Positions 5,282 to 22,049 of a stretch of 64,000 nt of DNA are shown here, in pieces. Within the stretch, counting starts at the first letter, position 1. Each line of letters starts with the position of its first letter. The position numbers were made by a program, and so were the translations under genes. The stretch lies in assembly GCA_007280905.1 (NCBI GenBank), contig QYQM01000008.1, positions 1-64,000 on the forward strand, given 5' to 3'. Below the pieces are notes generated by a model that worked only from the letters and a program-made list of their open reading frames with translations, did not search any database and was not told the origin of the DNA. The stretch comes from Porphyromonadaceae bacterium. Lineage in GTDB: Bacteria > Bacteroidota > Bacteroidia > Bacteroidales > UBA12481.

Positions 5282-6079
5282 GTGAAGCGATCAGGATTAT
5301 CGTTGATTTTTGCCGTACTGGGTGGCCTGGTGCTGTTGTTTATACTGGCACCGTTGGTGGGTATATTCCTTAAAACCACCCCTGTACAATTTTTTGAAAC
5401 GGTGCAGGATAAAGGGGTCACCAGTAGTATCCTGCTAACCCTTCTGGTTTCACTGTGCACGACCGTCTTTTTTGCATTCGGAGCTATTCCGCTGGCTTAC
5501 CTGCTTGCCCGGCGAAGTTTTAAAGGCAAGAACCTGGTTCAGTCGCTCATCGATTTACCGATCGTTATTCCTCATTCTGCTGCCGGTATTGCCTTGCTTG
5601 GACTGGTCTCGCGTGATTCATTGCTGGGAAAGGCTGCTTCGTCCATCGGAATTGATTTTGTAGGACATCCATTGGGAATCGGGTTGGCGATGGCCTTTGT
5701 CAGTTTGCCTTTCCTGATCCAATCAGCCCGTAATGGCTTCGAACAAGTACCAGTCAGGCTTGAAAAAGCCGCGATGAACCTGGGTGCTTCCGGTTGGAGA
5801 ACTTTCCGGACAATCAGCCTACCATTAGCGAAAAGGAGCATTATTTCCGGACTGGTCATGATGTTTTCCCGCGGGTTGAGTGAGTTCGGTGCCGTGGTTA
5901 TCATTGCCTATTATCCGATGGTTACACCAGTCCTGATCTGGGATCGTTTCAATGCCTTCGGATTGAAATATGCCCGGCCGGTGGCAGCGGTTTTTATTTT
6001 GGTCTGCCTGATTTTCTTTGTTGTTTTACGCATTTTGGCTAACAAAACGGCTGATGATCAGAATCGAAAACATATCTAA
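5282..6079 (+). CDS. wtpB: Tungstate/molybdate ABC transporter permease
   Basis: An integral membrane permease of about 265 residues with six predicted helices. The binding-protein-dependent transport signature, the EAA loop, is seen at EKAAMNLGASGWRTFRTI, and SRGLSEFGAVVIIAYYP lies in the last third as in ModB/WtpB. It forms the translocation channel for WtpC. The frame is open upstream to an ATG at 5201, but those 27 codons translate a repeat (CTGCCAACTGCC units). I therefore prefer the GTG at 5282, which gives the usual family length. Its 3' end overlaps wtpC by 26 bp, implying coupled translation. Confidence 0.85.
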   Translation: MKRSGLSLIFAVLGGLVLLFILAPLVGIFLKTTPVQFFETVQDKGVTSSILLTLLVSLCTTVFFAFGAIPLAYLLARRSFKGKNLVQSLIDLPIVIPHSAAGIALLGLVSRDSLLGKAASSIGIDFVGHPLGIGLAMAFVSLPFLIQSARNGFEQVPVRLEKAAMNLGASGWRTFRTISLPLAKRSIISGLVMMFSRGLSEFGAVVIIAYYPMVTPVLIWDRFNAFGLKYARPVAAVFILVCLIFFVVLRILANKTADDQNRKHI

Positions 6080-7112
6080 GCGATTCGAAAGCTTCGAACT
6101 CAGCAATGTCACTCTGGAAATTCCTGAGGGTGAATATGTTGTGTTGCTTGGGGATTCGGGTTCCGGAAAATCAGTGCTGCTGGAGATCATAGCCGGATTG
6201 ATAAAACCCGATCAGGGAAGGATCTTTCTGAATGATCAGGACCTTACGGATGAGCCAATCAGAAGCCGGCCTTTTGGAATGGTTTTTCAGGACCTTGCAC
6301 TATTTCCGCATTTATCTGTGCATGAAAACATTGCTTATCCGCTTAAGGCCAGGCATTTATCAAAATTGGATATGGATATAAAGATCAGGGAACTTGCTGA
6401 AAAGCTTGAAATCACCCATATACTGGACAGATATCCACCCAATTTGTCGGGTGGCGAAAAGCAAAGGGTGGCACTGGCCCGGACGCTCGCCAACGAACCT
6501 GCCTGCCTGCTGCTGGATGAACCGCTGGCTTCCGTTGATGCACACATCCGAAAAGAAATTAAATCGGTGCTGAGCAAGCTTCATCGCAATGGCCAGACTA
6601 TCATTCATGTCACTCACGATTACCAGGAAGCATTGAGCCTCGCTTCCCGCATCGGAATTTTGGAAAATGGCAAGTTGGTCCAATACGGACCTGCACTTGA
6701 GGTGCTGAGGAATCCGGTTAGCCCTTTCATGGCTAGTTTTACCGGTATCCGGAATTTCATCCCGGTAACACTCGGGAAGGACCCGGTTGACGGGCACTTC
6801 AAAGCCTGGACCAAACAAAATATTCCGTTGATCTTTCAAACCGACAAGGACTACGGCAAGGGATACCTGATCATTCCCGAGAATGCCGTTTTTCTTTCCA
6901 CTGAGCCGGTCACAACGAGTGCCGCAAACCAGCTGAAAGGCACTATAACCGATATCATTCCGGCACCACATGGCTTCGAAGTTGTTATTGATGTAGGCTT
7001 TTCGCTATATGCCCTGTTAACGGCCGACGGCATCGGGCGCCTGTCGATAAAAACCGGAGATTCGGTTTATGCGAGCTTTAAAGCAACCGCACTGAGGTTT
7101 ATTAAGAAATAA
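6054..7112 (+). CDS. wtpC: Tungstate/molybdate ABC transporter ATP-binding protein
   Basis: A 352-residue ATPase. Walker A is GDSGSGKS, the ABC signature is LSGGEKQRVALARTLA, Walker B is LLLDEPLASVD, and the switch histidine is in HVTHDY. A C-terminal TOBE/MOP-like beta domain follows from about residue 280 (TITDIIPAPHGFEVVIDV). Such domains occur in molybdate and related ATPases and can regulate uptake. The chosen ATG at 6054 (MIRIENISKRF) matches the family start; an upstream in-frame codon at 6018 lies inside wtpB. It powers import by WtpA and WtpB. Confidence 0.88.
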   Translation: MIRIENISKRFESFELSNVTLEIPEGEYVVLLGDSGSGKSVLLEIIAGLIKPDQGRIFLNDQDLTDEPIRSRPFGMVFQDLALFPHLSVHENIAYPLKARHLSKLDMDIKIRELAEKLEITHILDRYPPNLSGGEKQRVALARTLANEPACLLLDEPLASVDAHIRKEIKSVLSKLHRNGQTIIHVTHDYQEALSLASRIGILENGKLVQYGPALEVLRNPVSPFMASFTGIRNFIPVTLGKDPVDGHFKAWTKQNIPLIFQTDKDYGKGYLIIPENAVFLSTEPVTTSAANQLKGTITDIIPAPHGFEVVIDVGFSLYALLTADGIGRLSIKTGDSVYASFKATALRFIKK

Positions 7113-18109: not shown

Positions 18110-19297
18110 ATGAACCCCAAAAATGCACTGAATTCCATCGTATTAACGTTGGTCTTGGTGTCTCTGGCATTTGCAGGATGCAAAACTGCACCAAACAACA
18201 CCGCCGGCATTCACCAGTTGGATCTGGTATCGTTGAAGGATAACCCGGTTGACCTGGGCCTTTCGAAATTAGCGAAAGAGATTGAATACATTCCTTTGGA
18301 GACCAGGCCAGATGTACTTCTCGGGTCTGTAAAGTGTTGTTTGGGAAAGGAATGGATTTATATTCTCAGCAGGGACCAGCGGGTTTTACTCTTCAACCGG
18401 AGCGGGAAATTTGTCAGGACGATTGGTGCCCAAGGGAAAGGTCCGGGTGAATATATCGGGGCCCGGGAAATACAGATTTCTCCGGATGGGACCCTGATTT
18501 ATTTATATTCAACCCCCACAAACAGCTGCTATGTTTATAAAGTAACAGGAGAGCAGTACTGTCATTTTGAACTGGCCTATACTGCCTGGCGATTTGCCCG
18601 CCTTTCATCAGGAAAACATCTGATGATCGCACCGTATGGGGATTTTACTTTTACCAATGAGGGAAAATTCCTCTATTATATCCAGGATAGTACCGGTGCC
18701 GTGATCAGGAAATATCCCTCGGAAAATATTATCCGGATGTTGGGGAATTTTTCGATCGGCCGGTTTTTTATTACTACGGTATCACTCCTCGCCTATGTGC
18801 CATTTTCCGATACGGTTTTTCAGGTTGATAAAGCAGGGGAAATGAGTCCAAAATATGCATTGAACTTCGGAAAATACCGGATCCCCAATGAAGCTCATAA
18901 CGATATGGGTGTTCTCATGCAGAACCAGCATCAATATATTACAGACATTAACCTTATTGAAACCGAACCCTGGCTTTTCGTCAGTTGCTCTTTCCAAAAC
19001 GAGGCCCGTGTTGGATTTTACGCCTATGACCATAGCCCTGTTCAGTCTGTTCAAAACACCAAAGGCCTCATCATCAATGACCTCGACGGTGGTCCGAATT
19101 TCTTTCCAGCCGGATCAGATGGGATTAAAGAAGTTTATTCTCTTTTGCAGCCCGTTGATCTCTTTCTCCAAAAGAAGAATGGTGAATTTGAGAACAAGAA
19201 ATTCTCAAAGAATGATGCCCGTAAATCGTTTGTCAAATTCATGGACACTTTGAAAGAAGACGATAATCCGGTGGTTGTAGTGGTCACTTTAAAATAG
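18110..19297 (+). CDS. 6-bladed beta-propeller lipoprotein
   Basis: A 395-residue lipoprotein (lipobox ending at Cys24). Downstream features match the Bacteroidota 6-bladed propeller family: the EIEYIPLET motif near the start, the blade repeat LFNRSGKFVRTIGAQGKGPG, and ISPDGTLIYLYS. Such proteins sit at the cell surface or in the periplasm and are often encoded beside small secreted peptides; their ligands are unknown. It is a paralogue of the product of 19896-21089 and the two gene groups converge on the hairpin at 19400. No adjacent plus-strand partner was found. Confidence 0.8.
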   Translation: MNPKNALNSIVLTLVLVSLAFAGCKTAPNNTAGIHQLDLVSLKDNPVDLGLSKLAKEIEYIPLETRPDVLLGSVKCCLGKEWIYILSRDQRVLLFNRSGKFVRTIGAQGKGPGEYIGAREIQISPDGTLIYLYSTPTNSCYVYKVTGEQYCHFELAYTAWRFARLSSGKHLMIAPYGDFTFTNEGKFLYYIQDSTGAVIRKYPSENIIRMLGNFSIGRFFITTVSLLAYVPFSDTVFQVDKAGEMSPKYALNFGKYRIPNEAHNDMGVLMQNQHQYITDINLIETEPWLFVSCSFQNEARVGFYAYDHSPVQSVQNTKGLIINDLDGGPNFFPAGSDGIKEVYSLLQPVDLFLQKKNGEFENKKFSKNDARKSFVKFMDTLKEDDNPVVVVVTLK

Positions 19298-19452: not shown

Positions 19453-19788
19453 TTAATCTGCACACCTCGGATCATCTTCATTAAAGTTGCACCACGATTG
19501 CTTTAGCGTCGTCATCCGGCAACATTCAATCAGAGAAAAATTGGAACTGATTCCGATAACCCAACTGAAACCATTCGTATTGACACTGGGTCCGGTATTG
19601 AGTCTTAGTCCGTCGCTAATGAACACGTATGTCCGCTTTGTCTGTTCCTGCCAGCCCAAACCTTCACCATAGCCAATGAAGGTAGTATCCATTCCTGCAC
19701 CATTTACCGGATCTTCTCCGTAAACAATTCCGGTTACCAATAGGCAGGTAATCAGAATGATAATTGTTAATTGCTTTTTTGTTTTCAT
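19453..19788 (-). CDS. Small secreted cysteine peptide A
   Basis: A 111-residue protein with a clear signal peptide (about residues 1-24, ending VYGED). It carries no recognised domain. It has a cysteine pattern at the C-terminus: Cys89-Cys90, Cys100 and Cys109, that is CC-x9-C-x8-C-x2-end. Peptide B (21726-22049) has nearly the same length and the pattern CC-x9-C-x5-C-x2-end, and both have an aromatic/WVG-like stretch before the CC. It is the last gene of the minus-strand unit peptide B, thioredoxin-like, propeller, peptide A. The architecture recalls NVEALA peptides, which also neighbour propeller genes, but no NVEALA motif is present. Confidence 0.7.
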   Translation of the reverse strand: MKTKKQLTIIILITCLLVTGIVYGEDPVNGAGMDTTFIGYGEGLGWQEQTKRTYVFISDGLRLNTGPSVNTNGFSWVIGISSNFSLIECCRMTTLKQSWCNFNEDDPRCAD

Positions 19789-19895
19789 TCGTAAATAAAT
19801 TTTTAATGCTTGTTAAATTTTATTCGTACTCATGGAGCCCTCAATTATTCTCATGTCCTTTTGGGAACTTTAGTTCGTGAGGGGTTCATACTGTT

Positions 19896-21089
19896 TTAAT
19901 ATGATTTTGTTAACCATTCCTGTTTAATTTTTGCAAACCACAGAACCGGTCGGTCCTGGGTTAATGCCGACTCAACCAGTGAGTCCATTTCATGATAAAA
20001 TTCCTGTGTTTTTGGATCTTCTTTTCGATTCGCCTGTGACTCCTTTATAGCCATCAGCAGGGACATATCATATATACCAATCAGCTCATCCTGATCACTT
20101 TTCGCTATGGGATATAGTAAAGGAACCTTTGCGACACTACTGGTTATCTGGGTTGAAAAGACACCTTTTCGTGTATTGAGGTCAGCCATGGCTAATTCCA
20201 TATGGCTATCCAGGAAAACCCTGAAAAGCCGGATCGGACCAAAGGCAAGCAATTGATCTTTCCCGGAGACGTATTTTCCTTGAACAGCCTCTCCATACCT
20301 TGGTGAATTGTAACTGATACCGAATAAATCTTCAGGATATTTTAATTTACCCCAATCAAGGAATACATCAGGCGAAACCTCGCCCTTCTGATTGATTTTA
20401 AAGATGGTGTCGGATTGGCTGAGAAGCAGGGCTCCATTGCCAAACTCCTCCAGATTCCGTTGGTAAGCCACTGACCAATACATTGAGCTGTCGCCTAAAA
20501 CCTTTGCCTGTCCCCTGGATTTCCCATCTTCGCCTAACAGGAAAATTCCTTCTTCAAGGCTATCGACACCGTCATTAGAACGAGAGGCATTATAACCGGC
20601 GATCATATCGTCACCAACCCTGACCATATCCCTCGCCGACCAACGAACTCCGAATTCACGGAGCATCTGACCATCAAAATTATACACCATAATTTTTGAC
20701 GGCCAAAAGGATTGCAGCCAGAGTTCTTTTTCTGCCGGTTTTACCCACATGGCATCCAACTCCTGATATTCACCCGGTCCGCGGCCAACGCGCTGTATCC
20801 GGTATCTGAACTTACCCGTGGTATCGAAGCAAAAAACCGCTTCAAGCCTCTTGTCGAGCATGAACATGTTTTCACCGTTTACTATCATTTTGTCGATATC
20901 TGTGAAGGCTGATTCGGGGTGATTCTCCAGTTGAACATAATGTACCCGTTCGATGAATTGCCCAATATCGATTGCGTTAGCGGGCTCAAACGGAACCGTA
21001 ATGACCGATTCAACTGCTGCCTTCTTTGGCTGACAACCGGCAAGAAGGATCAGGCAAACCGCCAGGCTAGTATATATTTTTGTTCTCAT
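19896..21089 (-). CDS. 6-bladed beta-propeller lipoprotein
   Basis: A 397-residue lipoprotein (lipobox LLAGC, Cys19). The first blade has the family pattern ERVHYVQLENHPES and a later blade reads VGRGPGEYQELDAMWV; compare GKGPGEY in the paralogue at 18110-19297. It is predicted to be exported and membrane-anchored; binding partner unknown. It lies 10 bp after the thioredoxin-like gene and 107 bp before peptide A, in one minus-strand unit with two cysteine peptides. Binding or presenting those peptides is a reasonable but untested guess. Confidence 0.8.
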   Translation of the reverse strand: MRTKIYTSLAVCLILLAGCQPKKAAVESVITVPFEPANAIDIGQFIERVHYVQLENHPESAFTDIDKMIVNGENMFMLDKRLEAVFCFDTTGKFRYRIQRVGRGPGEYQELDAMWVKPAEKELWLQSFWPSKIMVYNFDGQMLREFGVRWSARDMVRVGDDMIAGYNASRSNDGVDSLEEGIFLLGEDGKSRGQAKVLGDSSMYWSVAYQRNLEEFGNGALLLSQSDTIFKINQKGEVSPDVFLDWGKLKYPEDLFGISYNSPRYGEAVQGKYVSGKDQLLAFGPIRLFRVFLDSHMELAMADLNTRKGVFSTQITSSVAKVPLLYPIAKSDQDELIGIYDMSLLMAIKESQANRKEDPKTQEFYHEMDSLVESALTQDRPVLWFAKIKQEWLTKSY

Positions 21090-21099
21090 TATGTATAGA

Positions 21100-21723
21100 T
21101 CAGTTAAAGTATCTCTGTTTAATCAGGTTGAGGTATTCTTTTGTCTGGACCTCCAGGGTAGGATAGGGTGTAAATGTCAGGTCTGCAAGATGTTCCGGAC
21201 CCGTCATGAAAAAGTAGGGAATTTCCAGTGAATCCATGGGCAATTGCAAACTTTTATCCTGAATTTCCAGAAACTCAACACCGGTCAGAATTTTTTGCCT
21301 GTGATTCCATTGTTCCCGTGTAGGCCCTTGTACCGAGAAAAGAATCAAGAGGTTATCCCGATTAATCTCTGTGATCTCATTCTTTACCATAAATAACAAT
21401 TGATCCACACAAGTGGAGCAATGCCGGTCGGACAATACGAGAACGAGCTTTTTCGACTGACCGATATAATTATTCAGATCGGTAGCGTCGCCTTTTGAGG
21501 GCTGTACCCATATTCCCTCAGGTATTTCCTTATTATTGGATTTCATGGTAAATTCCCAGCCTCTGTTCATCAGGTACAACTCCCGGTTTGCCTGGATAAA
21601 CCGGTTGCGGTTGTCGTTCATCCTTTGACTGTATTCCTTGTTGTTTTGATCAAACCTCCAGATCCAGGCAAGGTTAATGATCAGGAGGATGAAGATCGAT
21701 AGCAGCCAGAACCTTGCTTTCAT
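21100..21723 (-). CDS. Membrane-anchored thioredoxin-like protein
   Basis: A 207-residue protein with one N-terminal helix (about residues 5-22), so the rest faces the periplasm. A thioredoxin-like fold is indicated by KLVLVLSDRHCSTC, with the redox pair Cys102-x2-Cys105 after a beta strand, and by IPYFFMTG in the position of the cis-proline loop. The start ATG at 21723 lies 2 bp after the stop of peptide B, so the two are certainly co-translated. A thiol oxidoreductase between genes for cysteine peptides suggests a role in forming or reducing their disulfides. Confidence 0.7.
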   Translation of the reverse strand: MKARFWLLSIFILLIINLAWIWRFDQNNKEYSQRMNDNRNRFIQANRELYLMNRGWEFTMKSNNKEIPEGIWVQPSKGDATDLNNYIGQSKKLVLVLSDRHCSTCVDQLLFMVKNEITEINRDNLLILFSVQGPTREQWNHRQKILTGVEFLEIQDKSLQLPMDSLEIPYFFMTGPEHLADLTFTPYPTLEVQTKEYLNLIKQRYFN

Positions 21724-21725
21724 GA

Positions 21726-22049
21726 CTAGTTCGGACAGATTTTCAGATCCTTGCATCCGTCCATGGCGCGAAGGGTTTTCTTGCAGCACAGGTAATAGGA
21801 ATAATCAGTCACCAATCGTGAAAAGGAAGCGCCAACCCAGCCAAAATACTCAAAATGTTCACCGGACTTCTGTCTTTCGACCTCGGGCGTATAACCAACC
21901 AGAACTCCGGTCGGGGCATTTTCCGGGTCTATAATATTTCCCGGATTACCGTCCTCTGTTGCCAGGGCGCTAATCCCGATCAGATTACCCATCAGGATTG
22001 TAACAATGGCCAGCATAAATCCCAACCGTTTCCACTTAAATGTTTTCAT
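21726..22049 (-). CDS. Small secreted cysteine peptide B
   Basis: A 107-residue protein starting MKTFKWKRLGF with a signal peptide of about 30 residues. The C-terminus has Cys88-Cys89, Cys99 and Cys105: CC-x9-C-x5-C-x2-end, matching peptide A at 19453. Before the CC both have an aromatic segment (here FGWVGASFSRL). It is the first gene of the four-gene minus-strand unit, divergent from moeA. An in-frame upstream start would add 19 residues but would spoil the signal peptide. Function unknown. Confidence 0.7.
   Translation of the reverse strand: MKTFKWKRLGFMLAIVTILMGNLIGISALATEDGNPGNIIDPENAPTGVLVGYTPEVERQKSGEHFEYFGWVGASFSRLVTDYSYYLCCKKTLRAMDGCKDLKICPN

Follow-up and report, generated by a model that had tools for sequence, protein, structure and literature searches.

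Gene content of the cassette

Within the window, that is, the whole stretch of 64,000 nucleotides that was analysed, four open reading frames (ORFs) form a tightly spaced cassette on the minus strand, from position 19453 to 22049, which is under purifying selection. In the direction of transcription, the genes encode a first small peptide (peptide A), a thioredoxin-like protein, a propeller lipoprotein and a second small peptide (peptide B) (Table 1). The four ORFs, with the order, the sizes, the CSTC motif and the 2-bp spacing given in the initial annotation, were all present as described there. The ATG of the thioredoxin-like gene starts 2 bp past the stop codon of peptide A, and about 10 bp separate the thioredoxin-like gene from the propeller gene; these short gaps make co-transcription of peptide A, the thioredoxin-like gene and the propeller gene likely, as is predicted from the sequence for the closely spaced genes of the cassette.

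Table 1. Coordinates of the cassette genes and of a GG-leader locus in the same genome. Positions of the cassette genes refer to the window, those of L179 to its own locus.
Feature	Position	Strand	Description and basis
Peptide A	21726-22049	-	107 aa, exported; ORF, homologue alignment
Thioredoxin-like oxidoreductase, membrane-anchored	21100-21723	-	207 aa; alignment, AlphaFold2, Foldseek
6-bladed beta-propeller lipoprotein (DUF5128)	19896-21089	-	397 aa; PF17170, lipobox
Peptide B	19453-19788	-	111 aa, exported; ORF, homologue alignment
L179 (own genome, contig C59)	3-1637, 2687-3886, 5444-5695	-	C39 peptidase-VKOR-like fusion, DUF5128 propeller, GG-leader cysteine-rich peptide

The propeller lipoprotein matched PF17170 (DUF5128), a family without assigned function, at 80.6 bits (cut-off 22.9), and is by this curated score one of the 26 DUF5128 propellers of its genome; it carries the lipobox LLAGC, whose cysteine 19 is invariant in seven of seven sequences. 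No Pfam or NCBIfam family scored above its cut-off for peptide A, the thioredoxin-like protein or peptide B. Assignment to an anti-phage defence system was rejected, as none of the four proteins had a match with PADLOC. A second DUF5128 propeller gene, at 18110-19297 on the plus strand, is convergent with the cassette; it was considered as a further member and discarded, as those relatives with contig coverage of this place lack it there.

Conservation of the cassette in related genomes

Relatives from two genera, whose named records are MAGs of uncultured Bacteroidetes/Bacteroidales, have the same four-gene order at the corresponding chromosomal position. Complete copies are present in seven genomes (G000, G001, G003, G004, G005, G006 and G008), and in three (G002, G007 and G011) the cassette is cut by contig ends; in G002 the propeller continues on a second contig and is followed there by peptide B and an RND gene. 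These same ten genomes have peptide A next to the thioredoxin-like gene. The cassette is flanked on one side by molybdenum-cofactor genes (moeA, moaA and others), moeA being divergent and lying beyond the peptide A side, and on the other side, in most genomes, by RND efflux genes. G008, from the other genus, has the same arrangement on the moeA side but different genes after peptide B.

Both tests named in the initial annotation, co-occurrence of the peptide, thioredoxin-like and propeller genes in related genomes and conservation of the cysteines among peptide homologues, thus gave a positive result, the former across two genera and the latter for all four cysteines in 10 sequences of peptide A and eight of peptide B. 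Pairwise dN/dS was about 0.09-0.27 for peptide A and about 0.07-0.39 for peptide B, in both cases for the calculable pairs; many synonymous distances were saturated. The invariant cysteines together with these low ratios make it very likely that both peptides are translated and that purifying selection acts on them. The cassette is almost certainly a real functional unit.

Peptides A and B

The leaders of both peptides have a basic start followed by a hydrophobic segment and, in peptide A, a predicted cleavage site after ...GISALA, with an acidic stretch next to it. The mature part of peptide A ends with CC at 88-89, C99 and C105 (CC-x9-C-x5-C), and that of peptide B with CC at 89-90, C100 and C109 (CC-x9-C-x8-C), the last cysteine being followed in both by two residues. 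The four cysteines are invariant in 10 of 10 homologues of peptide A and, for peptide B, in seven of seven aligned sequences and in an eighth copy on the second contig of G002. Invariance across homologues, with dN/dS in the range reported above, places the shared cysteine layout beyond chance. Peptide B has in addition two invariant tryptophans, W46 and W99; the 10-sequence alignment of peptide A has none.

The likeness of the two peptides put forward in the initial annotation held for this cysteine layout and did not extend to sequence homology beyond it: the profile comparison of A with B was weak (hhalign probability 37%), and, over all sequences, the residues between the cysteines did not exceed the likeness expected from column permutation (p = 0.19). 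In G008 the segment CCKFTG is present in both peptides. A common origin of peptides A and B is possible on this sequence evidence.

By the database searches, peptides A and B represent two predicted families without a Pfam, NCBIfam or PDB match. Against 393 genomes of the order, the profile of peptide A had matches only inside its own family, and that of peptide B only weak partial matches outside it. The AlphaFold2 model of peptide A comprises a confident beta-hairpin within residues 50-107 and an uncertain middle, with a pTM of only 0.42, and gave no fold match at E <= 0.001. Assignment of the peptides to the BTK zinc motif (PF00779) was rejected on account of a sub-cut-off score and the lack of an invariant histidine.

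The thioredoxin-like protein

In its AlphaFold2 model (pLDDT 83.7), the thioredoxin-like protein has a long helix at the N-terminus and then a thioredoxin fold; it carries CSTC at positions 102-105 and a proline, P169, which precedes a strand and occupies by its place in the sequence the predicted cis-Pro position. C102, C105 and P169 are invariant in the alignment of 10 orthologues and also among 17 diverse relatives, many of them at 13-20% identity. The invariant CxxC and P169 are the strongest evidence in the cassette for an active thiol chemistry.

The best Foldseek matches in the PDB were to ResA, with TlpA close behind (E about 1e-6), and included TlpA-Sco/CuA mixed-disulfide complexes. 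The cassette protein shares with ResA and TlpA the N-terminal anchor, the thioredoxin fold, the CxxC and the proline at the cis-Pro place; however, it has no curated match to AhpC-TSA/Redoxin or to another Pfam or NCBIfam family, and it occurs next to peptide and propeller genes instead of in a context of cytochrome biogenesis. Since ResA and TlpA act as reductases in their known roles, the fold does not decide between oxidase and reductase. DsbD/CcdA-type proteins, which could feed a reductase, are present in the genome, and the family search found no DsbA-family match in it.

Human NHLRC2, in which a thioredoxin-like domain is fused to an NHL propeller (PMC6107167), was also among the fold matches. 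This protein illustrates that the two fold types can form one unit, although it is a single fused eukaryotic protein. It is not known to have a peptide partner.

Peptide, thioredoxin-like and propeller genes at other loci

A profile built from the thioredoxin-like orthologues alone had few matches in 295 class genomes; with a diverse profile, 32 of 295 order genomes gave matches. The genome that carries the cassette has about ten relatives of the thioredoxin-like protein, and nine of its 25 scorable propellers adjoin a thioredoxin-like gene. Exported peptides with at least four mature cysteines, which were screened by a crude leader-and-cysteine rule and not by a trained signal-peptide predictor, were found within 1.5 kb of six of the nine propellers with a thioredoxin-like gene versus two of the 16 without (Fisher p = 0.0099). 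At the remaining three clusters such a peptide lies 2.5-5 kb away. Both exceptions have a thioredoxin-like sequence nearby: L037 is within a cluster that holds such a gene, and at L180 the thioredoxin-like ORF beside the propeller ends early. The latter ORF (5943-6284, minus strand) contains CSPC, lies by the propeller and a cysteine peptide, and is possibly disrupted. The parts of the same regions that lie away from propellers, about 187 kb in total, contained only four such peptide ORFs, one antisense to a likely real peptide and the others identical to the peptides at 2.5-5 kb.

Outside the family, 17 loci were fetched by the thioredoxin-like gene alone, and the gene adjoins a DUF5128 propeller in 16 of them; a peptide with at least four cysteines was found within 3 kb in nine of the 17 loci and, by the same rule, in none of the other eight. 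Elsewhere, the peptides associated with these genes contain 4-8 cysteines, in layouts of many kinds. The exact CC-x9-C spacing was not enriched among 37 other associated peptides; a pattern widened after A and B had been seen, CC-x6..10-C-x4..9-C, occurred in six of the 37 (1.27 expected, p = 0.0008). The dedicated system of peptide, thioredoxin-like and propeller genes proposed in the initial annotation is supported by these data and can be extended to unrelated Bacteroidales loci.

In Bacteroidota, propeller genes near small peptides of the NVEALA type are common and without assigned function. Most of the loci fetched by NVEALA alone have a propeller next to them; a thioredoxin-like gene, or else a small CxxC lipoprotein, is a frequent further neighbour. 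Both types of neighbour, propeller and thioredoxin-like gene, are present in the cassette, which also resembles these loci in placing a small exported cysteine peptide by a 6-bladed propeller lipoprotein, and some NVEALA peptides terminate in CC-x7..9-C-x5..8-C. The suggestion that A and B, having no NVEALA motif, form a separate family was nevertheless supported: PF14055 had no match in the genome of the cassette, neither peptide has a family match, and their profiles gave no meaningful alignment with NVEALA profiles. The mature part is conserved in A and B, whereas in NVEALA peptides the leaders are conserved and the mature parts vary strongly; moreover, the cassette has two different peptides flanking one unit.

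A further parallel is the locus L179 of the same genome, which likewise combines a DUF5128 propeller with a cysteine-rich peptide. This peptide matched the GG-leader family TIGR04149 at 40.5 bits, whereas A and B had no NCBIfam match. The locus differs from the cassette in its GG leader and C39-type export, where the cassette peptides have a Sec-type leader. In place of the CSTC protein it has a fusion of a C39 peptidase domain with a weak match to VKOR, which is an oxidase domain. The VKOR-like fusion at this locus and the result of the DsbA search favour the idea that propeller loci have a dedicated means of oxidising exported peptides.

Altogether, the cassette is one lineage-specific example of a widespread class, of which NVEALA loci are another version, and the probable role of such loci, as predicted from their gene content, is the folding and binding of small disulfide peptides. 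In the literature searched, which had most subscription journals outside it, we found no paper on NVEALA and no description of the trio of peptide, thioredoxin-like and propeller genes as a recurrent class; the trio class is apparently undescribed, whereas NVEALA-propeller neighbourhoods are already known.

Possible function of the cassette

The conserved cysteines of the peptides and the conserved CxxC of their partner suggest that disulfides are formed or edited in the products of the cassette. Peptides A and B would be exported by the Sec route and their leaders cleaved, as predicted from the leaders themselves; the thioredoxin-like protein, anchored in the inner membrane, would form or edit disulfides among the cysteines of the CC...C...C arrangement in the periplasm; and the propeller lipoprotein, on the outer membrane or in the periplasm, could bind the folded peptides as a receptor, carrier or display partner, a role to which the association of the genes points. 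The thioredoxin-like protein probably has the peptides as its substrates, and whether it acts as an oxidase or isomerase is an even matter; binding of the peptides by the propeller is conceivable and falls a little short of that balance. A thioredoxin-like protein that oxidises the peptides, with a propeller that binds or displays them, would fit all the evidence, and for the reading as a whole, in which the cassette is a self-contained envelope unit for two disulfide-bonded peptides, we see the chances as equal.

The main rival takes the opposite direction of thiol chemistry, with a reductase that keeps the cysteines of A and B reduced so that CC-x9-C-x5/8-C binds a metal in an envelope metal-binding or sensing system. 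The best folds, ResA and the TlpA-Sco/CuA complexes, agree with it, as does the DsbD/CcdA homologue in the genome, and CC-x9-C has the spacing of the BTK zinc motif. The BTK matches are however weak (13.6 bits versus a cut-off of 24, hence far below it), the histidine region upstream of the cysteines is not invariant in peptide A, the varied cysteine layouts of the associated peptides resemble those of disulfide peptides and not one metal site, and the GG-leader version has a VKOR-like domain; we consider this explanation unlikely. Less likely still is a secreted two-peptide toxin or bacteriocin, to which the propeller would confer immunity and whose folding the thioredoxin-like protein would assist. 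Two exported cysteine peptides in one unit, the strong variation of the mature NVEALA peptides behind conserved leaders and the many loci per genome would all suit a toxin, but both genera have A and B, in conserved form, at a single syntenic site; the two peptides are neither hypervariable nor mobile, and there was no match to defence models or, for the model of peptide A, to a known fold.

The list of parts also recalls the mau operon, which comprises a propeller, a small cysteine-rich polypeptide and a membrane thioredoxin-like protein; the cassette would then encode a periplasmic enzyme like methylamine dehydrogenase, with the propeller as large subunit, a peptide as small subunit and the thioredoxin-like protein as MauD. 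The two invariant tryptophans of peptide B would be in line with this, but peptide A has no such residue, no tryptophan pair is common to the related peptides, and the cassette propeller is a 6-bladed DUF5128 protein, unlike MauB, which is a 7-bladed propeller, so that this explanation is very improbable.

Returning to the disulfide-peptide reading, its widest form would be a so far undescribed, multi-copy class of disulfide peptides in Bacteroidota, with an oxidoreductase and a propeller receptor of their own at each locus, with NVEALA, GG-leader and A/B peptides as branches, and with a role in envelope signalling or interaction; we propose this only tentatively. No function is assigned to the NVEALA peptides and DUF5128 propellers of gut and environmental Bacteroidales, and the recurrent thiol-disulfide partner, together with peptide cysteines that are fixed in this lineage, leads to a testable hypothesis for the class as a whole, namely the production, folding and recognition of disulfide peptides by such loci. 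Bacteroidota biology would, if this hypothesis is true, gain a large set of exported peptides.

Other features of related loci

In one genome (G225) several triplets of the trio are present (L152, L154 and L155); their peptides look like paralogues and have in common a similar segment rich in cysteines. L164 (G286) has two propellers and a single thioredoxin-like gene, surrounded by three exported peptides that are related to one another, measure about 140 aa and resemble each other in their cysteine ends. At L035 in the genome of the cassette (contig C173, 5808-14204), the thioredoxin-like gene is in a cluster of lipoprotein-like ORFs with a 774-aa ORF, and an exported peptide with 8 cysteines is encoded upstream. 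Genes for a TPR-CHAT protein, a sigma-70/ECF-like factor and a small membrane protein lie by the trio loci L036 (11264-17180) and L057 (11015-15114), and at L036 a signal peptidase I (S26) gene adjoins a cysteine peptide.
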